DNA from: an uncultured Lachnospiraceae bacterium
Lineage (GTDB): Bacteria; Bacillota; Clostridia; Lachnospirales; Lachnospiraceae
DNA length: 32,952 nt
Direction: 5' to 3'
Assembly (NCBI GenBank): GCA_947627365.1
Contig: CANQVT010000026.1
Coordinates: 1-32,952 of the forward strand
The position numbers and the translations under genes are program-made. Below are positions 6,698-30,336 of this stretch, piece by piece (within the stretch, counting starts at the first letter, position 1; each line of letters begins with the position of its first letter). The notes beneath the pieces were generated by a model that was given only the letters and a program-made list of their open reading frames with translations, did not search any database and had not been told where the DNA came from.

Positions 6698-6748
6698 TAA
6701 GGCCCCAGGGAATGCCTGTGCAAGCACGCATTCCCTTTGCGGGCCTTA
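6698..6748 (-). terminator. Long hairpin overlapping the acsB stop codon
   Basis: TAAGGCCC (6698-6705) pairs with GGGCCTTA (6741-6748), which includes the acsB stop codon. AGGGAATGC (6707-6715) pairs with GCATTCCCT (6728-6736), and GTGC/GCAC closes the tip. The stem is stable and GC-rich and sits directly at the translation end. The transcribed strand continues with AGCGATAAAAAG rather than a U tract, so it is more likely a 3'-end protecting or processing stem, or a weak terminator. Confidence 0.5.
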
Positions 6749-8869
6749 CATCATCGGCTCCATGCTAAGCGCCGGATGGCCCTTCTCCTCAAGGAAAGCC
6801 AGCAGGGTCTCGGGATCTTCCGCAACGGTCTCGTCACCGATCATATCCGTGAAGTTGTCGATTCCGTAGAGCTCCTTCGCGGTCGCGTTCAATCTGTCGG
6901 CCACCTGCTCCTTCAGATCCTTCGGCATCCACACGATACGCTCGATACCGCCCTCAGCCTTCATGAACTTCTTGGAAGCGATGAAGTGCTTGCCGTGGCC
7001 CATGAAGCCCGGTGTCTGCACGCCGCCGCCCGTCATGGAAGCCAGCTCCGGGAAGGTCATGCCGATCGGGGTCATGCCCGCGTACTCACGGTTCGCGATA
7101 CATACGCCGTTCGACAGCGGCTCGATACCACAGATGCACTCGAAGCATCCGCAGGAGGTCATCGGCTTCTCGATGATGGAATACAGGGAAACATCCTCCA
7201 GCGCGCCCTGGGAGAACTTGCGGACTGCCTCGTTGACATCCTCGTACTCACCGATACGCTCGTCGATCGGACGTTCCTTCGTGATCACCTGGCACGGTCC
7301 CTGCGGATCCAGCTCGTTGGTCGCCTTCGCGTCCAGCCACGAAACGGCGCCGCAAAGTCCGAGTCTCTCCGGCGTAACCACACAGACGTGGCTCGGGGAG
7401 AATGCCTGGCACATGATGCAGCTGTAGTATACGTCCACACTCTCGTCGGTCAGCGTATTCAGACGCTCGTCACGCTTGTCGAACGTCGGGATCGCCACCT
7501 CGTGACGGAGCTTCGTGCACTGCTCAGCCTCGGTGTAGATCGTCACCTGGCACTTGTCAACAACCGCCGCGAACTCGCTCTTCACTCTCGCGTAGAGCAC
7601 TTCGCCGAGATGCTTGAGGCCGAAGCCCGCGTTGAACGTATCCTTGCTCACACGGACACGGATCATATCGCGCTGTCCGGTGTGCATCATACCTTCTACA
7701 CAGTTCAGGTAGGAGTGGAACTTACGCTCGATAACCGGCTCGAAGTCGGACTGCATGTTCTTGCCTGCCACCTGCACGACATAAGCGATACTCTGCTTGC
7801 TGCCCTCCGGGAAATCCTTGATGTCCGGTCCGATGACCTCGATCTTGTGATCCTCGACCTCGTTCGCTTCCTTCGTCTGCACCAGCTCGAAGCAGTCCAC
7901 GCGGGAGCCGTCGAACTCGATCTGCATATCGCCGCGGCGGATGATCTCGCCCTCGAACGCGGACGCGAACGCTACCGGGATATCGATCTTTGTGATCTTG
8001 ATCTTGATGTCGCGCGCCTCCAGAGACGTCGCGTTCCACTTGTCTACATCCGGCTGCACAATCAGGCTCTTCGGAACGGTGAACGGATAATCGTTCGTGA
8101 TTGCCGGGAAGCCCATCGCGATCGCGCCCGCGCCGCAGGCAAGCGTCACATTGTCAAGCGGAGCGAACGCGTTAACGAACGCAAACACACGCTTCATCGT
8201 GTACTCGTTCAGGCCCTTCGCATCGCCCGGCGTGATGTTGCCGAAGATCAGTGCCGCGCGGACTGCTACGGAAATGACATGCGCAACGCTCAGGATGTCG
8301 TCGCCCAGCGGAAGGATACGCACGCCCGGGCCCGTCTTGACGCCCTTCTCGACGCACTGGTCGATGATGCCGCCGATCATGGCGACGAGCATGCCCTGTC
8401 CCTGATAGCTCTTCACAAGGGCAACGCCCTGCTCTGCCGTCGGAGCAGGCCCGATGATAACCGCTACGCCCGGGATATCGCCGGTAACAAGCGGAACGCC
8501 CTGCTCACGCACGTAAGCGTCGCTCAAGTGGCCCGTATACGGAGCCTCGTACGGCGTCGCGCCGTCGATGTACTTCAGAACTTCATAAAACTCCGCGCAC
8601 AGCAGGGTCGCCCAGCCGGACTGGAACCCGTCGTGCAGTCTCTGGTTTCTCGTCATCATGGACTTCACAACGCCGAGCGCTTCCTTCAGCTCGTCGAGGT
8701 TGCCGACCTTGTTGCCGGTCATGCCATAGTAGCTCGGAAGGCTGTAAGCCGTATCCGGGAAAGCAACCGCCTTGTCAGCGCCGTACTTCTCAACAGCTTC
8801 GTTGACCGCTTTCTCTACGCGCTCATACACTGTGTCGTTACCGTTAAATATAAGATCTAATAATCTCAC
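6746..8869 (-). CDS. acsB: CO-methylating acetyl-CoA synthase AcsB
   Basis: The 707-aa catalytic subunit that joins methyl (from AcsCD), CO (from AcsA) and CoA into acetyl-CoA at the nickel A-cluster. The cubane cysteines are C484, C487, C496 and C506 (CIMC, then C at +9 and +10), and the C573-G-C575 motif binds the two-nickel site. The length matches bacterial AcsB, which keeps the N-terminal CODH-contacting domain. I chose the GTG at 8869 because GGAGG lies 8 bases upstream and the protein then begins RLLDLIFNG as in the family; extending further upstream adds 38 unlikely residues from the leader. A structured leader precedes it and large hairpins follow it. Nickel loading would be by the nearby CooC/AcsF proteins. 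Confidence 0.96.
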   Translation of the reverse strand: MRLLDLIFNGNDTVYERVEKAVNEAVEKYGADKAVAFPDTAYSLPSYYGMTGNKVGNLDELKEALGVVKSMMTRNQRLHDGFQSGWATLLCAEFYEVLKYIDGATPYEAPYTGHLSDAYVREQGVPLVTGDIPGVAVIIGPAPTAEQGVALVKSYQGQGMLVAMIGGIIDQCVEKGVKTGPGVRILPLGDDILSVAHVISVAVRAALIFGNITPGDAKGLNEYTMKRVFAFVNAFAPLDNVTLACGAGAIAMGFPAITNDYPFTVPKSLIVQPDVDKWNATSLEARDIKIKITKIDIPVAFASAFEGEIIRRGDMQIEFDGSRVDCFELVQTKEANEVEDHKIEVIGPDIKDFPEGSKQSIAYVVQVAGKNMQSDFEPVIERKFHSYLNCVEGMMHTGQRDMIRVRVSKDTFNAGFGLKHLGEVLYARVKSEFAAVVDKCQVTIYTEAEQCTKLRHEVAIPTFDKRDERLNTLTDESVDVYYSCIMCQAFSPSHVCVVTPERLGLCGAVSWLDAKATNELDPQGPCQVITKERPIDERIGEYEDVNEAVRKFSQGALEDVSLYSIIEKPMTSCGCFECICGIEPLSNGVCIANREYAGMTPIGMTFPELASMTGGGVQTPGFMGHGKHFIASKKFMKAEGGIERIVWMPKDLKEQVADRLNATAKELYGIDNFTDMIGDETVAEDPETLLAFLEEKGHPALSMEPMM

Positions 8870-8909
8870 TTTCTCTACCTCCACTTTTTTAGTTATTATT
8901 TTTATAATA

Positions 8910-8983
8910 CCACGGATTGCTCCGTGCTGCGCACTCTCGCAATCCTGCCCCAACATTCGGAATCCGTGGGGCCCCCGCCCCAC
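8910..8983 (-). promoter_or_regulatory. acsB leader with mutually exclusive hairpins
   Basis: Three pairings compete: CCACGGATT (8910-8918) with AATCCGTGG (8961-8969); CACGGA (8911-8916) with TCCGTG (8921-8926); and GTGGGGC (8966-8972) with GCCCCAC (8977-8983). The segment 8966-8969 is shared by the first and third, and 8911-8916 by the first and second. This is an attenuator-like layout just ahead of acsB, although no T run follows. No known riboswitch consensus was recognised. Confidence 0.35.
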
Positions 8984-9002
8984 TACTTCCTCATGTTTGG
9001 GC

Positions 9003-9063
9003 GAGTCATTAAATCATAGAAACACTCCTGCATAAATGCATCGTGTTTCATGATTTATGACTC
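9003..9063 (-). repeat. 61-base near-perfect hairpin after the CooS-like gene
   Basis: GAGTCAT-t-AAATCAT-a-GAAACAC (9003-9025) pairs with GTGTTTC-ATGATTT-ATGACTC (9043-9063), giving 21 pairs interrupted only by two single-base bulges. The tip holds TGCAT-aa-ATGCA (9029-9040). It begins 8 bases past the stop of the CooS-like gene and lies about 130 bases ahead of acsB. It is too AT-rich and lacks a U tract for a normal terminator, so an RNA processing or stability role is more likely. Confidence 0.6.
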
Positions 9064-9071
9064 TGGTATTA

Positions 9072-9764
9072 TCAGATTGCTATCGCGTTTCTCTTCTTCT
9101 CGATGTCCGCAATGATCGCGTCGCCAAGCTCCTCAAGATCCGCGGATACGGTATGCTTCGCCTCCGCTCCGTCCTTCAGGCCGCTTGCGGCGATCACATC
9201 CTCAAGAGAACCCTCATAAGGCATAATGCCGATAAAGGTGTCTACGCCGAGCCCCACGAACGTGTTGCCAAGCTCGACCGCCTGCGCCGATACGCCCGCC
9301 GCGTCGCAGCCGACCACCGGGAGCTGCGGAACCGTAAGCCCGGAATCCGCGGACAGCGCCTGCGCGATCGTCACGACACTGCCGATGTTCTCCAGTCCGC
9401 CAAGCGGCAGCACCGGAGGAATCTCAGCCAGCTCGCAGACCCGCTTCAGCCCGTCGCCGCAGAGCTCCTTCGCCTCCGGATTCAGAAGGCCGGCGTTCTG
9501 CGCCACTGTGACCGGATACCCGATCGCAAGGATCACGAGGTCGCCCGCAATCAGCTTCTTCATCAGAGCCACATACTCATCCGTGTCCCGGACTTCCGAG
9601 CCCTCGCCACCGAGCATCACGACCGCCCCGCGCAGGACGCCGGAGACCACGCACGCCAGCAGCGGCTTTGTCGTACCGGTTGCATCCACCTGAGAATTGC
9701 ACACCCCGTCAAGTGCCTGGATGATATCACCCACCTCAAGTTTCGGTAATGCTGAATCACTCAT
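9072..9764 (-). CDS. CooS-like C-terminal-domain protein lacking C-cluster cysteines
   Basis: A 230-aa intact reading frame that aligns end to end with residues of about 400-630 of the AcsA/CooS protein encoded two genes upstream. Shared segments include NSQVD-TGTTKPL, LMKKLIA, LCGDGLKRVCEL-IPPVL and LPVVGC. The three C-cluster cysteines of this domain are all replaced: C451 by G53, C481 by Y83 and C522 by L124. The N-terminal domains with the B and D clusters are absent. It therefore cannot be an active CO dehydrogenase. The frame is free of stops, has a GAGG ribosome site and keeps conserved non-ligand positions, which argues against a decaying fragment. It lies between cooC2 and acsB, suggesting a scaffold, maturation or regulatory partner of CODH or ACS. 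The function is inference. Confidence 0.8.
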   Translation of the reverse strand: MSDSALPKLEVGDIIQALDGVCNSQVDATGTTKPLLACVVSGVLRGAVVMLGGEGSEVRDTDEYVALMKKLIAGDLVILAIGYPVTVAQNAGLLNPEAKELCGDGLKRVCELAEIPPVLPLGGLENIGSVVTIAQALSADSGLTVPQLPVVGCDAAGVSAQAVELGNTFVGLGVDTFIGIMPYEGSLEDVIAASGLKDGAEAKHTVSADLEELGDAIIADIEKKRNAIAI

Positions 9765-9806
9765 TTCTATCGCCTCACTTTTTTAAATTTATCTCGTAAA
9801 CCGGAC

Positions 9807-10603: not shown

Positions 10604-12496
10604 TTAGATCCCTAAATGATCTCTCTTCTCCTCGATGCGCTCGATCATCTTATCGACGAGCTTGTCGATGTCGGTCTCGATCGTGTAAGCAGCCTCGACC
10701 CAGTCTCTGACGCCGTTGGTCAGCAGATCGTAGACCTTGTCGGAACCGCTGATGTACGGATCGACGCCGAGGAAGGTGTCGATACCGGTCGCCACGACAT
10801 AGTTGCCGATGGAAACTGCCTTCTCGGACATCCACTCAGGCGCGCAGCCGACTACCGGAAGCTCGGAGATCTTCCAGCCGGAATCCTTCGCCAGCTCAGC
10901 CACGAGGATCATCATACGGCTGATGTCCACGCAGGAACCCATGTGCAGCACCGGCGGGATGTCCGCCAGCTCGCAGACTCTCTTGAGGCCGTCGCCGCAG
11001 AGATCCTTCGCCCTCTTGTCCATCAATCCAGCCTTTGCCGCAGCCTGCGCCGCACAGCCGGAAGCAACGATGATGATGTCGTTCGCAATCAGCTTCTTCA
11101 TCAGCTCGATGTGAGCGGTATCCGGGCGGATCTTCGGGTTGTTGCAGCCAACCATGGCCACAGCGCCGCGGATAACACCGGACTTCACGCACTCGATGAG
11201 CGGCTTCGTCGTACCGGTCTCGTCCACCTGGGAGTTTGTGACCGTGTCGAGCGTCTTGACGATCGCCTCGAAGGAATAACCGACCGTAGCCTTCTGCTTC
11301 ATATCCGGGATATGTACGAGCTCCGGCTTTCTGTTCTTGAAGTTCTCAATCGCGAGCTTCACGATCGCCTTCGCGTTCTCACCGGCGGTCTCCGGCTCGA
11401 AGCGGATGTAATCGGACTCCGGCATCTGAGCGATCTCGGAGGTCGTCACGAACTTCGTGTGGAAGCACTTCGCCAGAGGCCCAAGTGCAGGGAAGATACA
11501 CTGCACGTCCACAACGATCGCCTCGCAGGCGCCGGTCAGGATGACGTTCTCCTGCTGCAGGAAGTTGCCCGCCATGGGGATACCGCGGCGCATTGCCACC
11601 TCGTTGGAGGTACAGCAGACGCCCGATACGGTGATGCCCTTCGCGCCCTGCTCCTTCGCGTATGCGATCATCTCCGGACTGTCCGCGTACTCGCAGATCA
11701 TCTCGGAAAGTGCCGGATCGTGGCCGTGTACGACGATGTTGACGTTCTCAGCGTTCATGACGCCTAAGTTCGCCTCGGTGTCGATTGGCTTCGGCGTGCC
11801 GAACAGGACGTCGGAGAACTCCGTGCCTGCCATGGATCCGCCCCAGCCGTCGGAAAGTCCGGAACGGAAGGACTGGCGGATCAGCGCCTCCGGCTTGGAG
11901 GAGCAGCCCATGTGCGTCATATGTAAGGAACAGGAAACCTCACGGTCGATGGCGCGCGGAGCGATTTCTTCTCTCTCCCAGATCTCCTGCGTGTGCTTCG
12001 GAGCTCTCTTCAGGAAATTCTGATAGCCGAACACCTTGCCGTACTCGCTGAGGCCCATGTAAGCGACCTCATGCGCCAGATCGTAGATGTCCTTGCCCTC
12101 GGTCTCCACGCCCCACTCCTTCGCGATGCGGATCAGCTTCTCAGGATCCTTCACCTTGTAGTTGCCGTCCGGAGCCGCGCAGTACAGCGTGTGGCAGATT
12201 GAACGTCCGTGATCGGAGTGCGTCGCGGAACCGCCCGCCGTGAATTTCAGATAGTTACGAGCTACGATGCCGTGCGCGTCGCAGCCGCAGATGCCTCTCG
12301 GAGCCTTCGGCGTAATGCGGCACGGACCCATCGAACAGATACGGCAGCAGATACCCTGCTCGCCGAACTTACAGTGCGGAGTCTGGTTCTTTACACGGAA
12401 CTGCCACGCGTCCGCGCCCACCTTAGCGCCAGTCTCCAGAAGTCGGTTAGTACCGGCTTCAAACTCTTCTACTGTCGTCAACTTAAACTCTCCCAT
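10604..12496 (-). CDS. acsA: Anaerobic Ni-Fe carbon monoxide dehydrogenase catalytic subunit AcsA/CooS
   Basis: A 630-aa homodimeric CODH that reduces CO2 to CO (or oxidises CO) for the acetyl-CoA synthase. D- and B-cluster cysteines lie at C42, C50, C51, C54, C59 and C70. The C-cluster ligands are the His in VHGHDP (257-259), C294/C295, C333, C451, C481 and C522, so all catalytic ligands are present. The length is normal for the family. The ATG has AAGGAGG just upstream. It is flanked by two CooC-type ATPases and followed by acsB, which identifies it as the bifunctional CODH/ACS partner rather than a stand-alone CO-oxidising enzyme. No internal stop or selenocysteine signal is seen. Confidence 0.97.
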   Translation of the reverse strand: MGEFKLTTVEEFEAGTNRLLETGAKVGADAWQFRVKNQTPHCKFGEQGICCRICSMGPCRITPKAPRGICGCDAHGIVARNYLKFTAGGSATHSDHGRSICHTLYCAAPDGNYKVKDPEKLIRIAKEWGVETEGKDIYDLAHEVAYMGLSEYGKVFGYQNFLKRAPKHTQEIWEREEIAPRAIDREVSCSLHMTHMGCSSKPEALIRQSFRSGLSDGWGGSMAGTEFSDVLFGTPKPIDTEANLGVMNAENVNIVVHGHDPALSEMICEYADSPEMIAYAKEQGAKGITVSGVCCTSNEVAMRRGIPMAGNFLQQENVILTGACEAIVVDVQCIFPALGPLAKCFHTKFVTTSEIAQMPESDYIRFEPETAGENAKAIVKLAIENFKNRKPELVHIPDMKQKATVGYSFEAIVKTLDTVTNSQVDETGTTKPLIECVKSGVIRGAVAMVGCNNPKIRPDTAHIELMKKLIANDIIIVASGCAAQAAAKAGLMDKRAKDLCGDGLKRVCELADIPPVLHMGSCVDISRMMILVAELAKDSGWKISELPVVGCAPEWMSEKAVSIGNYVVATGIDTFLGVDPYISGSDKVYDLLTNGVRDWVEAAYTIETDIDKLVDKMIERIEEKRDHLGI

Positions 12497-12583: not shown

Positions 12584-13360
12584 TTAAAATGAAAGCTTGG
12601 CGATGATCTCGTCCATTGCTCTGCGCACCGGCGAGTCCTCCGGCAGGCTGACCGTCGGCTTGCCGTCGCAGTCGTACTCGTACACCTGCTCGTCGTGCGG
12701 AACGACGCCAAGGAGCGTCAGCCCCTGCTTTTCGATCTCCTCCAGCGTGCCCTCGTTGAGCTTGCCTCCCGGCGCCCGGTTCACGATCAGCCCCATCGTC
12801 TTCGGCGTCATATTGCACTCGCGCGTCAACTCCGCGATCCTCCCGGCCGCCTGCACGCCTCTTCTGGAGCAGTCGCTCACGAGGATGATCGTGTCCACCT
12901 TCGGCAGGATGCCCCTGCTGATGTGCTCCATGCCGGCCTCGTTGTCCACCAACATATATTTGTAATTCGGCAGCAGCCTCTGCAGCTGCGCCTGGAGCAG
13001 GCCGTTCACATAGCAGTAACAGCCTTTCCCCTGCGTGCGCCCCATCACAAGCAGATCGAAATCGTCATCCTCAATCAGGCAGCGCTGGAACATAACCTCC
13101 GCGAAATCTGCCTTCGACATCCCGGCAGGAATCTTTTTCTCCTCCTGCACCCGATGCTCATCCTGCGCGATCTCCTCGCGGACATCGCCGAGGGTCATCT
13201 CAACCTCCACGCCGAGCACCTCGTTCAGATTCGAGTTCGCGTCGGCGTCTACTGCCAGGATCGGCGTCTTGCCCATCCTGCACATAGCCTGAATCAACAT
13301 ACCGGAAAGCGTCGTCTTTCCAACTCCGCCCTTTCCGGCAACCGCAATCACATGCGCCAT
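12584..13360 (-). CDS. cooC: CooC nickel-insertion ATPase (first copy)
   Basis: A 258-aa P-loop ATPase of the MinD/CooC group. Residues 9-17 are the deviant Walker A GKGGVGKTT. The CxC metal site is C114/C116 in GKGCYCYVNG, and VDNEAGMEHISRG is the switch region. It should load nickel into the C-cluster of AcsA, whose gene begins 87 bases downstream. The start at 13360 is chosen for its AGGAGG site 7 bases ahead; longer upstream extension has no ribosome site. It shares fold and motif spacing with the copy at 9807-10577 but differs widely elsewhere, consistent with two specialised maturases rather than a recent duplication. Confidence 0.9.
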   Translation of the reverse strand: MAHVIAVAGKGGVGKTTLSGMLIQAMCRMGKTPILAVDADANSNLNEVLGVEVEMTLGDVREEIAQDEHRVQEEKKIPAGMSKADFAEVMFQRCLIEDDDFDLLVMGRTQGKGCYCYVNGLLQAQLQRLLPNYKYMLVDNEAGMEHISRGILPKVDTIILVSDCSRRGVQAAGRIAELTRECNMTPKTMGLIVNRAPGGKLNEGTLEEIEKQGLTLLGVVPHDEQVYEYDCDGKPTVSLPEDSPVRRAMDEIIAKLSF

Positions 13361-13445
13361 TGTGTGCCTCCTGAAATAATACTGTTGCATCGCCGCTGCC
13401 GTTTCAGGCCGCGCGCGCATAAATCTAAGTCATCATCCGCCGGCT

Positions 13446-13637
13446 TCAGTCGTCCACACAGTCGATCTTCACGACTCCGCCCGTCAGATCCGCCATCGCG
13501 AGCGTCCCCTCGACGGTCTTCTGCTCACCCATCACATCCGTGAGCGTGATCTGATCACCGTGCACCTCGACCTTACTGACATACTCAAGGATGATGCTGT
13601 CCGGAACATTTGTCCGGTACGCTGTTGCAAGGCACAT
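13446..13637 (-). CDS. cooT: CooT-family small nickel-binding protein
   Basis: A 63-aa protein beginning MCLATAY. CooT of Rhodospirillum rubrum is a protein of about 66 aa that starts with Met-Cys and binds nickel at Cys2, serving CODH maturation. The remainder is a small beta-rich, HypC-like fold pattern (VSKVEVHGDQITLTDVMGEQ). I chose the ATG at 13637, not the longer frame, because GGAGGTGG lies just upstream and the MC- start is the functional signature. It sits between the His-rich gene and cooC, matching a nickel-supply module. Annotation pipelines may extend it to 94 aa in error. Confidence 0.8.
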   Translation of the reverse strand: MCLATAYRTNVPDSIILEYVSKVEVHGDQITLTDVMGEQKTVEGTLAMADLTGGVVKIDCVDD

Positions 13638-13757
13638 ATCGTCCACCTCCTGTCGACTTTCGCCTGCTGCATGAATAGGACATCCCCCAATGGACACCTC
13701 TATAGATCCTTCCCGGAAATATCCTGCCATTGCACAACCTATCGTTTTATAAAATCA

Positions 13758-14222
13758 TTATGGCTCCTTCACCATAGAAAGCGCGAGGCTCAGATAGAGA
13801 TTTCCCTTATGGAACTCGTCGACGGCTTTCCTGATCTGCTCCGCCGCCGCGCCTTTGCCCTCCGCCTGCAGTTTCCCGGCCACCTGGTCGAGCTCCGCCG
13901 CGTGGTGCTCATTGTGCTTGAGCATGTAATCCAGCAGTGCTGTCATCTTGTCGCCGGATACTTCCTCGCCATGCGCGTGGGTATGTCCTTCATGCTCATG
14001 CCCGGCATGTCCGCCGCAGCCTCCGCAGTGACTTGCGCAGCCCGTGTCCTCCGCATGCCCGTGGCAATGACCCTGCTCTCCCTCATGGACGTGGTCGTGC
14101 TCATCCTCGTGTCCATGCTCGTGACTGTGCGGATGTGTGTGTTCGTAAGTGTGTGTATGCGCATGTTCATGCTCATGCGAATGCGGGCAGAGATTGCCGT
14201 TTTCATCCTGAATCAAATGCAT
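13758..14222 (-). CDS. His-rich probable nickel-binding protein (CooJ-like role)
   Basis: A 154-aa cytoplasmic protein. Residues 1-84 contain 26 histidines, mostly alternating as HxH with Glu, Thr and Ser, plus Cys at 12, 53, 62, 66 and 69 (CASHCGGC). Residues of about 92-154 form a helical, charged domain (MTALLDYMLKHNEHH to the end). It is the first gene of the operon, about 66 bases from the predicted start of transcription, and precedes cooT and cooC. R. rubrum encodes a His-rich nickel chaperone CooJ beside CooC and CooT; here the His region is N-terminal, so it is an analogue rather than a clear homologue. Start at 14222 is set by an AGGAGA ribosome site. Nickel or zinc storage is inferred. 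Confidence 0.7.
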   Translation of the reverse strand: MHLIQDENGNLCPHSHEHEHAHTHTYEHTHPHSHEHGHEDEHDHVHEGEQGHCHGHAEDTGCASHCGGCGGHAGHEHEGHTHAHGEEVSGDKMTALLDYMLKHNEHHAAELDQVAGKLQAEGKGAAAEQIRKAVDEFHKGNLYLSLALSMVKEP

Positions 14223-14269
14223 ATCTGATCTCCTTTTGAACATAATGTTTGTTATTTTTTTCACATTCC

Positions 14270-14281
14270 AAAATGCATTTT
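14270..14281. promoter_or_regulatory. 12-bp perfect palindrome just after the operon start point
   Basis: AAAATGCATTTT lies about 7-18 bases downstream of the predicted transcription start of the acs operon. A symmetric site here could be a repressor operator, but AT-rich palindromes also arise by chance. Confidence 0.3.
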
Positions 14282-14294
14282 TACATTTGGGTGC

Positions 14295-14323
14295 ATTATA
14301 GCACATTTCGGGATATGCTACAA
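14295..14323 (-). promoter_or_regulatory. Sigma-A promoter of the CODH/ACS operon
   Basis: On the minus strand TTGTAG (14318-14323), a 17-base spacer and a consensus TATAAT (14295-14300). Transcription should start near 14288, giving a 5' leader of about 66 bases before the His-rich gene. Confidence 0.8.
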
Positions 14324-27378: not shown

Positions 27379-27930
27379 TTATTTCACCAATCCAATCCTG
27401 TCAAACGGCCAGATGCAAAACAGCGCCTTGCCGATGATATCCTCTCCTGAGATATTCCCGACACTCGGCTCCCTGCTGTCACGGCTGTTGTTCCGATTGT
27501 CGCCGAGCACGAAATACTCATCCTCCGCCAGCGTGATCTCCGAGGACGCGAATCCCGGATTTCGGATCTCTTCATTGCCATAGTTTTCCTGCAGTATCCT
27601 GCCATTGATATAGATGTCTCCATCCTGAATCTGCACCGTCTCGCCCGGAAGTCCAATCACACGCTTGATATAATAGACCCCATCCTGGTACTGGAACGGA
27701 AATACAACGATATCAAAGCGTTTCGGATTGGTGAAGCGATAAGAGATCTTGTCGACGATCAGGTTATCACCATCTTCAAGCGCCGGGTACATCGACTCCC
27801 CGCTCACAACCGTCCGCTCCCCGACAAAGTGCACGATGAGAAACGTGGCGCCCAAAAGCAGTACAAGAATAAGAATCCAGTTCACAAATTCCCGTACCAC
27901 GCTTTTTTTCTTTTTATTCTTCTGGCGCAA
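27379..27930 (-). CDS. lepB: Type I signal peptidase (copy 1)
   Basis: A 183-aa membrane-anchored serine protease that removes signal peptides from exported proteins. A Lys-rich N-terminus leads into one membrane helix (about 17-37), then the catalytic Ser46 in SGESMYPALEDGD and Lys89 in YYIKRVIGLPGE, and the GDNRNNSRDSR box near the C-terminus. The start must be the TTG at 27930: an in-frame stop lies two codons upstream and no ATG precedes the membrane helix. It is the shortest of three copies in this region and is close in sequence to the 28030-28620 copy, suggesting a tandem duplication. Confidence 0.93.
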   Translation of the reverse strand: MRQKNKKKKSVVREFVNWILILVLLLGATFLIVHFVGERTVVSGESMYPALEDGDNLIVDKISYRFTNPKRFDIVVFPFQYQDGVYYIKRVIGLPGETVQIQDGDIYINGRILQENYGNEEIRNPGFASSEITLAEDEYFVLGDNRNNSRDSREPSVGNISGEDIIGKALFCIWPFDRIGLVK

Positions 27931-27982
27931 ATTCTCTCACCACCGTATTCTCAATGTTTCTCGCCATTCTTCCCCGCCGTTT

Positions 27983-28006
27983 TGCAAAAGGGGGCACCTT
28001 CGCCCC
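27983..28006 (-). terminator. Possible weak terminator after lepB copy 2
   Basis: On the minus strand GGGGC (28002-28006) and GCCCC (27991-27995) form a 5-bp stem followed by CTTTTGC. The stem and T run are short, so read-through into the next lepB is likely. Confidence 0.35.
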
Positions 28007-28029
28007 ACAGACAAATCTTTGTCTTTGCG

Positions 28030-28620
28030 TCACTGATGCTTCAGCACCCCGAGATCGGACAGCGGCCATATGCGTACCCAGGCTCTTCCGACGATATCCT
28101 CGCGTTTGATATTTCCAACCTGTCCCCGGTTCCTGCTGTCGGTGCTGTTGTTGCGGTTGTCGCCGAGCACAAAATACTCGTCGTCCCCAAGCGTAATCGG
28201 CTCGGCCGCCCCGTCCGGATTCAGGATCGTCTCCTTGCCGTAATTCTCCTCCAGCAGCTCGCCGTCGATATAGATGTTTCCGTCATCGTCGATCTGCACC
28301 GTCTCGCCCGGAAGTCCGATGATGCGTTTGATATATAATTCCTTCGGGGATCCCTTCGGCGGGAAAACAATGATGTCGAAGCGCTTCGGATCTCCAAAAC
28401 GATAGGATAATTTCTCGACGATCAGGTTGTCCCCGTCGTGCAGCGTATTCTCCATAGATCTGCCGTCCACCACCGTTCTCTGTCCAACGAAGTGGATGAT
28501 CAGATACGTCAGGACAACCACAAATAAAATATAAAATATCCAGCTCATAATCTCCTTTTTGATATCCAGCTTCTCTTCTTCCTTTGCGGCGTCCTTCCGG
28601 ACATCCTGCTTCTCCTGCAT
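28030..28620 (-). CDS. lepB: Type I signal peptidase (copy 2)
   Basis: A 196-aa signal peptidase with a charged cytoplasmic N-terminus (about 22 residues), a membrane helix near 26-46, nucleophile Ser55 in DGRSMENTLHDGD and general base Lys98 in LYIKRIIGLPGE, and the GDNRNNSTDSRNRGQVG box. The ATG is preceded by GGGGGC. It lies between ylqF/rbgA and lepB copy 1. The catalytic pair is intact, so all three copies appear active; differences in the substrate-binding stretch around the Ser may give different substrate choice. Confidence 0.94.
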   Translation of the reverse strand: MQEKQDVRKDAAKEEEKLDIKKEIMSWIFYILFVVVLTYLIIHFVGQRTVVDGRSMENTLHDGDNLIVEKLSYRFGDPKRFDIIVFPPKGSPKELYIKRIIGLPGETVQIDDDGNIYIDGELLEENYGKETILNPDGAAEPITLGDDEYFVLGDNRNNSTDSRNRGQVGNIKREDIVGRAWVRIWPLSDLGVLKHQ

Positions 28621-28694
28621 GCTTACTGCCCCCGCTTTCTTTCTGCTTTTGCAATGGCCCTCTGCTCCATCCGGCCAAATTCACACTCCATGCG

Positions 28695-29567
28695 TCAAAT
28701 TCCGTCGCCTGTATTTTTGCCGTCTTCTTCCGGCAATTCCAATGTGACTCTCCCGAGCCTTCCGCTTCTCAGATCGTCAACAAGAAATGCAGCAGCCCTC
28801 TGAAAATCCGGCTGCCCGCCCTTCTGAAGGCATCCCCGCGATTCCGCGATCCTTCCGAACAGCTCGGCATCTGTGCCATCCTCCGAAATCCCATACCGCT
28901 CCTGAAGCCTGCCCGGATATCGTCCACGCAGAAAAGCCAGGATCCACATCGCCAGCTCTTCTGCCTGAAGGATCTCATCCCTGATCGAACCGATCACCGC
29001 AAGCTTCTGTCCAACGGCCTGATCCTCAAACTTCGGCCAGAGAATCCCTAGCGTGTCAAGAAGCTCCACATTCTTGTTCAGGCGAATCCACTGCTTTCCC
29101 TTCGTCACACCCGGCCTGTTTCCGGTCTTCGCACACGCCTTGCCCGCGAATGTATTGATAAAGGTGGACTTTCCCACGTTCGGAATGCCCGCAACCATCG
29201 CACGCACCGGACGGTTCAGAATCCCCCGTCTGCGATCACGCTCCGTCTTCTCACGGCAGGCCTCCCGGATCAGCTCCTGAATCTGCTTCATGCCTGCGCC
29301 GCTCCTGGAATCAATCTCCGCGACAAAATGACCTTTTCCACGAAAATACTCCGCCCACACGCGATTGCACTGTTCGTCCGCAAGGTCAGCCTTGTTCAGA
29401 AGGACCAGACGCGCCTTATTTTTCCCCAGCTCATCGATGTCCGGATTTCTGCTCGAATACGGCACTCTGGCATCGAGAAGCTCGATGACCAGATCGATCA
29501 GGCGGATATCCTCCTGCATCATCCGTCTGGCTTTCGTCATATGGCCCGGATACCACTGGTAGTTCAT
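28695..29567 (-). CDS. ylqF: Ribosome biogenesis GTPase RbgA/YlqF
   Basis: A 290-aa circularly permuted GTPase needed for late 50S assembly. The permuted order is visible: the G4 motif NKAD (58-61) comes before G1 GIPNVGKS (127-134), then RPGVTKGKQW and the DTLG G3 motif. It begins MNYQWYPGHMTKARRMM, the family signature, with GAGGG ahead of the ATG at 29567; an upstream extension of 16 residues is not used. It lies between two signal peptidase genes in the usual rplS-lepB-ylqF-rnhB order. Confidence 0.96.
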   Translation of the reverse strand: MNYQWYPGHMTKARRMMQEDIRLIDLVIELLDARVPYSSRNPDIDELGKNKARLVLLNKADLADEQCNRVWAEYFRGKGHFVAEIDSRSGAGMKQIQELIREACREKTERDRRRGILNRPVRAMVAGIPNVGKSTFINTFAGKACAKTGNRPGVTKGKQWIRLNKNVELLDTLGILWPKFEDQAVGQKLAVIGSIRDEILQAEELAMWILAFLRGRYPGRLQERYGISEDGTDAELFGRIAESRGCLQKGGQPDFQRAAAFLVDDLRSGRLGRVTLELPEEDGKNTGDGI

Positions 29568-29633
29568 ATATTCCCTCACAATCTGTGTAACTGTCCGCTT
29601 CCAGCCTGATGGCACCGCCCTGTCGCCTGTGCC

Positions 29634-30245
29634 TCAATCCTTCAGGAATCCCCTGTGTCCCTGTGAGGAGAGCACAAACCAGACCTTGCCCTCAATATAG
29701 TCGGACTCTACAAGGCCCACATCTCCAAATCTGCTATCCTCGCTGTTGTTGCGGTTGTCTCCAAGCACGAAATATTGTTTGTCCCCAAGCTTGATCTCGT
29801 CGGCCGCAATCCCCGGATTGGTGATTGCCGGATAGTTCTTCTTCTCCAGATAGACAGCGCCATTGATATAGATCATCCCGTCCTTGATCTGTATGGTCTC
29901 ACCGGGAAGCCCAATGATGCGCTTGATGCTCGAATGCCCGGTCGTGCTGCCATTTGGCTTGAACGAGATCACATCTCCCCGCTTTGGCGAGCCAAGCTGG
30001 TACGCCATCACGTTCAGAAGCACGGTATCGCCGCCGGACAGAGTGACGTCCATCGACTGCCCCACATTTGTGCGGGTTTGTCCGAAGAAATAAACCACCA
30101 CATACGCAAACAGGATCACCACAAGGATCTCAAACGTCCACAACAGGATATTGCGCACCACGGATTTCTTCTTCTGGGGAATCGAGGCCGGCTGCATAAG
30201 CTCCATCTCGCTCACATCCTGCACTCCCTGTGCTTTTTTTCTCAT
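29634..30245 (-). CDS. lepB: Type I signal peptidase (copy 3)
   Basis: A 203-aa signal peptidase. The start at 30245 follows GAGGAG; the longer frame of 219 aa lacks a ribosome site. A cytoplasmic tail of about 30 residues precedes a membrane helix (about 33-54), then Ser64 in VGQSMDVTLSGGD and Lys108 in SSIKRIIGLPGE, and GDNRNNSEDSRFGDVG. It is the most divergent of the three copies: Asp-Val replaces the usual substrate-pocket residues after SM, and it has Gly-Gly-Asp where the others have Asp-Gly-Asp. It is the first gene after the rplS terminator. Confidence 0.93.
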   Translation of the reverse strand: MRKKAQGVQDVSEMELMQPASIPQKKKSVVRNILLWTFEILVVILFAYVVVYFFGQTRTNVGQSMDVTLSGGDTVLLNVMAYQLGSPKRGDVISFKPNGSTTGHSSIKRIIGLPGETIQIKDGMIYINGAVYLEKKNYPAITNPGIAADEIKLGDKQYFVLGDNRNNSEDSRFGDVGLVESDYIEGKVWFVLSSQGHRGFLKD

Positions 30246-30290
30246 ATCCTGCTCCTCACCTGCCCGAAAACGGATCTCTTCCATGCAATG

Positions 30291-30336
30291 CAAAAGGAGC
30301 GTTGCAAAAGAAATATCTCAGATCCTGCAACGCCCC
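30291..30336 (-). terminator. Terminator after rplS
   Basis: GCGTTGCA (30299-30306) pairs with TGCAACGC (30326-30333), with a further GG/CC pair after one mismatch. On the minus strand TTTTGC follows. It lies 11 bases after the rplS stop. The T run is short, so termination may be partial. Confidence 0.65.

Follow-up and report, generated by a model that had tools for sequence, protein, structure and literature searches.

Nickel CO dehydrogenase (Ni-CODH; AcsA or CooS) and proteins built on its scaffold are the closest described counterparts of the protein analysed here. CooS-V of C. hydrogenoformans is a CODH scaffold with an altered C-cluster, but it is full length, has all three domains and binds an Fe/S/O cluster; its C-terminal domain spans residues 415–629 (PMC9311411). 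The structural groups A-4 and A-6 are full-length, CODH-like proteins with incomplete active-site signatures (PMC6344411), and mini-CooS (clade G; Thermosinus carboxydivorans) is a small, CODH-like protein with a complete metal-cluster motif (PMC8776680). The epsilon subunit of the archaeal CODH/ACS is small, consists of a single Rossmann fold, binds the CODH subunit and is described as burying the D-cluster (PMC11474084). For the CODH of C. autoethanogenum, an ACS-docking loop and a helix alphaA have been described (PMC11474084). Surveys of CODH diversity have a blind spot: the survey that defined A-4 and A-6 dropped hits below 550 aa (PMC6344411), two surveys dropped hits below 400 aa (PMC8776680, PMC13056359) and two dropped proteins with changed cluster residues (PMC11338639, PMC8776680), so that length or intact-motif filters exclude proteins like the one reported here. 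Literature searches (open-access records, with passages of some papers) turned up no account of a protein like this.

The window, the whole analysed stretch of 32,952 nucleotides from an uncultured Lachnospiraceae bacterium (contig CANQVT010000026.1), carries a gene of this kind, hereafter half-CooS, in its CODH/ACS operon (Table 1). The frame runs on the minus strand from an ATG at 9764 to a stop at 9072 and encodes about the last third of the CO dehydrogenase enzyme; the plus-strand reading of the same interval was rejected as a gene. The initial annotation had aligned the product with the end of the AcsA encoded 840 bases upstream. This alignment held, as acsA ends 840 nt from the half-CooS start and a search of the window's own genome returned, at E 0.001 or better, only half-CooS itself and AcsA, with 47% identity over half-CooS residues 13–229. 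In the alignment, homology to the C-terminal domain of AcsA/CooS Ni-CODH (TIGR01702, PF03063; C. autoethanogenum 6ytt/9fzy) extended over residues 10–228. Pfam recognised PF03063 (CODH/prismane, CODH/HCP superfamily) and no other family, at profile positions 346–512 of 513 and with 85.5 bits against a cut-off of 27, which places half-CooS in this domain family; the E-value of 4e-24 is far above chance. Half-CooS scored 91.9 bits against TIGR01702 (Ni-CODH catalytic subunit), below the cut-off of 478 and compared with 620.7 bits for the neighbouring AcsA, and it had no match at E 0.001 to TIGR01703, the hybrid cluster protein model.

Table 1. Features of the half-CooS locus in the window
Feature	Position	Strand	Basis
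Half-CooS gene (230 aa); C-terminal Rossmann domain of CODH on its own, C-cluster ligands lost	9072–9764	minus	ORF translation, own-genome match, Pfam, relatives
Ribosome-binding site GAGGCGA of half-CooS, kept in relatives	9770–9776	minus	Sequence and upstream stretches of relatives
Codons 19–42, segment equated with the published ACS-docking loop and helix alphaA; close to AcsA	9639–9710	minus	Identity comparison; mapping inferred from sequence order
Codons 97–113, most strongly kept stretch; probable helix	9426–9476	minus	Identity comparison
Codon 53 (Gly), position of the domain's first C-cluster Cys; Cys kept in L119 and L126	9606–9608	minus	Alignment of 25 copies
Codon 83 (Tyr, invariant in aligned halves), second C-cluster Cys position	9516–9518	minus	Alignments
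Codon 124 (Leu, invariant in aligned halves), third C-cluster Cys position	9393–9395	minus	Alignments
Codon 161 (Gln, invariant in aligned halves), acid-base Lys position	9282–9284	minus	Alignments
Clostridiales-1 RNA element (RF01699), at the end of half-CooS in the window genome; outside the conserved arrangement	8905–9071	minus	Family match, relatives' empty sites
acsA (CODH, 630 aa); closest solved structure C. autoethanogenum CODH	10604–12496	minus	NCBIfam, PDB search
cooC-family ATPase gene, 256 aa	9807–10577	minus	Pfam; best PDB match CooC 3kje, E 3e-52
acsB (ACS, 707 aa); GTG start at 8869 read from sequence; closest solved structure C. autoethanogenum ACS	6746–8869	minus	NCBIfam, PDB search
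CooT-like protein	13446–13730	minus	PF10133
CooC-like ATPase upstream of acsA	12584–13420	minus	P-loop families only

Half-CooS is a pseudoenzyme domain that was split off a well-known enzyme. Unlike Ni-CODH, it starts at the C-terminal domain, lacks the middle domain and the N-terminal domain with the B- and D-clusters, and has its C-cluster ligands and acid-base lysine replaced. Its limits are about those of the CooS-V C-terminal domain. Mini-CooS, as described, is set apart by its motif, none of the three cysteines of the domain being present in half-CooS. The archaeal epsilon subunit is comparable only in how it may work; unlike that subunit, half-CooS matches PF03063 alone.

On the minus strand the gene order was a CooT-like protein, an ATPase that we take to be CooC-like, acsA, the CooC-family ATPase, half-CooS, acsB, acsD, acsC, acsE and acsV, the last four being named by reading their sequences. 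The reported position between a CooC/AcsF maturase and acsB was therefore correct, as was the open frame with a ribosome site. In the PDB, AcsA matched the CODH of C. autoethanogenum best (6ytt/9fzy; 730 versus 605 bits) and AcsB the ACS of the same organism (886 versus 673 bits).

A search for the 230-aa form beside acsB in related genomes, which the initial annotation had proposed, found a full-length half-CooS in 22 of the 47 genomes of the window's genus (window included). The other 21 copies were 81–98% identical to it and without internal stops; all 22 ran for 230 codons between an ATG and a stop and were preceded by GAGGCGA (21 of the 21 relatives examined), and the order acsA-cooC-half-acsB was the same around each. 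One further genome (G161) held residues 1–63 only, at a contig end. The remainder comprised 10 genomes without a match and 14 with AcsA only (14 of the 37 with a match); among these 14, cooC was followed directly by acsB in 11 and acsA by acsB in one (G176), and the junction lay off the contig in two (G173, G181). A scan of named genomes with two exact peptide patterns returned 25 loci in MAGs titled Lachnospiraceae, Clostridiales, Eubacteriales or uncultured Marvinbryantia. The full half was present in 24, judged to comprise 21 relatives already counted and three further genomes (L113, L114, L126) with the gene between cooC and acsB; the 25th was the G161 contig.

Beyond the genus, no further half was seen among the matches listed for 150 genomes of the family (E 1e-3), where the only short ones were a relic in genome G142 and a contig-end acsA piece in G105, nor among those listed for 397 genomes of the family (E 1e-40), 392 of the order (E 1e-40), 391 of the class (E 1e-12) and 388 of the phylum (E 1e-30). 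In these four larger samples, the window's half aside, one listed match had a frame below 400 aa (G765, 305 aa, running to the contig end) and the others were at least 412 aa. Because most genera are represented in these samples by one or a few genomes, a half confined to a genus could escape them, as did those of G204 and G207, two genomes of a second genus whose copies the peptide patterns also missed. The viral contigs searched contained no relative, and the plasmid search gave one match, 40% identical, in a 2.6-Mb Acetoanaerobium record. Two results count against generality: 14 of the 37 genus genomes with a match do without half-CooS, and it was absent from the wider samples as listed.

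The three C-cluster ligands had been read as Gly53, Tyr83 and Leu124, and the alignment agrees for the copy in the window. At the first position, two of the 25 copies (L119 and L126) had Cys and the other 23 had G or T. A further change, absent from the earlier description, affects the acid-base lysine of the AcsA motif APEWMSEKA, which is Gln161 in 15 of 15 half rows. The copies with Cys53 (L063, from the contig of L119, and L126) occupy the base of the half clade, where branching is unresolved. This hints, short of proof, at an order of loss in which Cys53 went last of the three, with L119 and L126 as a possible intermediate of ligand loss. The changes were concentrated around the former active site. 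Of the columns that all CODH rows conserve, those within five residues of the ligand positions or in the lysine loop (154–161) were changed in 18 of 28 cases, compared with 6 of 41 elsewhere (Fisher P = 3e-5). In 28 columns, one of them at the alignment edge, a residue was invariant in the 15 halves and present in at most 5% of AcsA rows, and many of these lay near the old cluster positions.

Selection was assessed by the Nei-Gojobori method in 14 of 17 chosen genomes in which all genes were usable (91 pairs, pS < 0.7). With ratios that are approximate because silent sites are near saturation, the median dN/dS was 0.066 for half-CooS (86 of 91 pairs with pS < 0.7), 0.060 for the matching part of AcsA and 0.038 for whole AcsA, compared with 0.099 for acsB, 0.060 for acsC, 0.040 for acsD (74 of 91 pairs), 0.029 for cooC (52 of 91) and 0.024 for acsE. 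The comparison with the CODH gene suggested earlier thus puts half-CooS within the range of its neighbours, and its dN exceeded that of AcsA in each of eight chosen pairs. Loss of catalytic residues under purifying selection is the pattern of a pseudoenzyme paralogue. The core of the initial annotation, a retained non-catalytic paralogue of CODH rather than a decaying duplication, is almost certainly right, given 22 of 47 genomes with an intact copy beside acsB, no stops and a dN/dS like that of neighbouring genes. The opposite explanation, a partial duplicate of acsA in decay or an artefact of assembly, would account for a protein that spans exactly one domain of a neighbouring gene and for the truncated relic in G142, but it is extremely improbable against intact copies of constant length in 22 genomes with a kept ribosome site, a dN/dS of about 0.07 and no stops. 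Decay was rejected for this genus on the intact copies, the missing stops and the low dN/dS, and an artefact on the presence of the full half in 22 genomes.

Phylogenetic analysis of 82 C-terminal domains placed the 15 halves in one clade (100/100) on a long stem (1.81) whose attachment point is unsure, showing a single origin of the family. The copies of G204 and G207 sit on a long branch (0.68) within a nine-row set (97/87) whose other seven members belong to the first genus; their placement suggests transfer and could also be a long-branch effect. Mapped on the AcsA tree (38 rows), the half-bearing label needed three changes, of which well-supported branches force only one; on the CooC tree it needed two, both forced. 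Half-CooS therefore either entered more than one CooC background or disappeared from some of them. Gene conversion as the cause of the conserved blocks was not supported, third positions of identical codons agreeing at 0.41–0.54 in own pairs and 0.38–0.56 in non-own pairs.

To locate the segments that stayed like AcsA, we compared three sets of rows: the 15 halves, 51 AcsA sequences of Lachnospiraceae and 16 sequences of other CODHs. The last set includes the C. autoethanogenum row and a Lachnospiraceae row that groups with these other CODHs (L019), and the long-branch row L158 was left out. Identity to the Lachnospiraceae AcsA consensus at residues 19–42 was 0.72 for the halves and 0.54 for the other CODHs, and at residues 97–113 it was 0.87 and 0.59, respectively. 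Outside four named blocks the order reversed (halves 0.38, other CODHs 0.58). For residues 19–42, whose limits were set after seeing the alignment, 3 of 197 alignment windows were as extreme (circular-shift P = 0.014); for residues 97–113 it was 1 of 204 (P = 0.005), both values being uncorrected for the choice of limits. Without the G204 and G207 copies, the values were P = 0.023 and P = 0.005, respectively. When the first segment was split, the loop at 19–31 was not exceptional (P = 0.17) and the helix at 32–42 was borderline (P = 0.05). Columns specific to Lachnospiraceae AcsA showed no significant enrichment in 19–42 (3 of 4 kept versus 17 of 37, P = 0.34).

Half-CooS probably has a role in the CODH/ACS system. 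Since it corresponds to Rossmann fold 2, the AcsA and AcsB of the window are closest to the C. autoethanogenum pair and residues 19–42 are well kept, we propose, with a probability of about 0.38, that it is an ACS-docking pseudo-subunit. As such it would be non-catalytic and would keep the loop and helix by which C. autoethanogenum-type CODHs hold the N-terminal (A1) domain of ACS, with residues 19–42 as a putative exposed element binding AcsB; the face that surrounds the C-cluster in AcsA would be reshaped. Half-CooS might then bind newly made or free AcsB at the AcsA-docking site, serve there as a placeholder or chaperone while the CooC-type ATPases load nickel, and give way to AcsA; alternatively, it might act as a competitor that sets how much ACS docks on CODH. 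Of the roles listed in the initial annotation (a scaffold, a nickel-loading clamp, a competitor for dimerisation, or a gate between CODH and ACS), the list was narrowed rather than settled, and the CODH-ACS interface is favoured because the retained segment overlaps the published docking element in the mapping inferred from sequence order. Several observations count against docking: the best-kept stretch, 97–113, lies outside the docking element as published and is not known to be linked to ACS; the test on columns specific to Lachnospiraceae AcsA was not significant for 19–42, and the loop and the helix taken singly were unexceptional and borderline, respectively; AcsB hardly differs between half-bearing and half-less loci (2 of 707 columns, compared with 5 of 256 in CooC); and 14 of the 37 AcsA-bearing genomes of the genus lack half-CooS.

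The column comparison bears on a second explanation, in which half-CooS works with the CooC-type ATPase encoded next to it. As a decoy or carrier that CooC recognises as a CODH domain, it would hold this nickel-loading ATPase or direct it to AcsB or apo-AcsA. The cooC gene lies directly upstream in the in-operon copies laid out, and between 16 half-bearing and 14 half-less chosen loci, CooC had the densest label-separating columns (5 of 256), compared with 3 of 630 in AcsA, 2 of 707 in AcsB, 4 of 449 in AcsC and none in AcsD, AcsE and the upstream ATPase, with fewer rows for these last four. However, these counts are small and confounded by ancestry, and the CooC excess was for this reason set aside as main evidence. 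Half-bearing operons also carry two separate CooC lineages, with at least two label changes forced by well-supported branches, so there is no strict pairing of CooC with half-CooS, and half-CooS itself could presumably not receive nickel at a C-cluster because the ligands are gone. We consider a CooC partner unlikely.

Rather less likely still is an action on AcsA itself, either by occupying or propping the position of the C-terminal domain during folding of apo-AcsA or by forming mixed assemblies that lower CODH activity. The shared domain and origin and a gene two places after acsA fit such an action, and the block at 97–113, 0.87 identical, could be a shared contact. However, the D-cluster of CODH, which belongs to the N-terminal domain, sits at the subunit interface (PMC6344411), so half-CooS cannot join the usual CODH dimer, and the heaviest alteration lies in the columns surrounding the former C-cluster, which are expected to face the middle domain.

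The genus of G142 (13 genomes) contains half-CooS outside the operon. G204 and G207 each hold an intact 230-aa copy, 68% identical, which in G207 is flanked by genes for a MatE transporter and TraX; the surroundings in G204 look the same by eye. The operon of G204 has acsA and cooC, with cooC followed by acsB. In G207, acsC, acsE and acsV lie at a contig edge and the genome search found no acsA or acsB; we did not accept this as real absence, and the operon is probably split by an assembly gap because acsC begins at the contig edge. G142 itself has only a relic of about 40 residues, two pieces of the half run together, on a different contig from its remaining acs genes; the gene ahead of it is presumably a glutamate racemase. 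The genome search found neither acsA nor acsB in G142 and G203, and in both a metF-like gene, acsD, acsC, acsE and acsV stand in a row (L190, L191); the two genomes apparently have the methyl branch and corrinoid protein without CODH/ACS. CODH/ACS has thus probably gone as well from the sole genome whose half is broken; as one case, this fits a function tied to that system.

These copies also bear on the idea that half-CooS is a neofunctionalised Rossmann protein that holds a new ligand in the old cluster cavity and no longer depends on CODH/ACS. The 28 half-invariant, AcsA-rare columns, many near the old cluster, are consistent with it, as is the retention of the gene outside the operon in G204 and G207 at a dN/dS of 0.027 (one pair; 0.003 for acsE of the same two genomes). 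Against it, acs genes persist in each genome whose half is intact (the 22, the three further MAGs, G204 and G207), the search of the one relic-bearing genome gave no acsA or acsB, and Pfam assigns no other domain to half-CooS. We judge this independence from CODH/ACS improbable. It is somewhat more possible, though still doubtful, that half-CooS represents an undescribed regulatory or assembly subunit of bacterial CODH/ACS, a free Rossmann fold 2 domain that, in some gut acetogens, would compete with CODH for ACS and control docking, nickel loading or the coupling of the gas tunnel. Its gene would be portable, occurring in more than one operon background as well as away from the operon. A dead natural copy of the docking-element domain would provide a small, expressible reagent for studying ACS docking apart from CODH catalysis.

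The RF01699 match in the window was full length (122 bits) and lay exactly between half-CooS and acsB. Four close relatives (G191, G185, G187, G193) had an empty site at this position, and the half-CooS stop codon was TGA in the window compared with TAA in three of these four. The 11 copies read (including L224–L233) had inverted repeats at both ends that differed in sequence, one being imperfect, and the element in the window folded at a z-score of -12. Matches occurred in 43 of the 47 genomes of the genus, 0 to 44 in each, with at most 47 candidates scored per genome. This RNA family behaves like a mobile palindromic element; one literature search returned nothing relevant.

Other observations concern the surroundings. 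Upstream of the ATPase and acsA, the interval 13446–14306 (minus strand) encodes the CooT-like protein and a very His-rich 182-aa protein without a Pfam match; relatives of both were found upstream of acsA in most loci laid out, and the two genes probably form a nickel-handling block. Two acsB genes stand in tandem directly 3' of cooC in two loci (L099 in G133 and L100 in G136). At 27379–30293 (minus strand), near a GTPase-like gene and an rnhB-like gene, the window contains three ORFs that we take to be type I signal peptidase paralogues.
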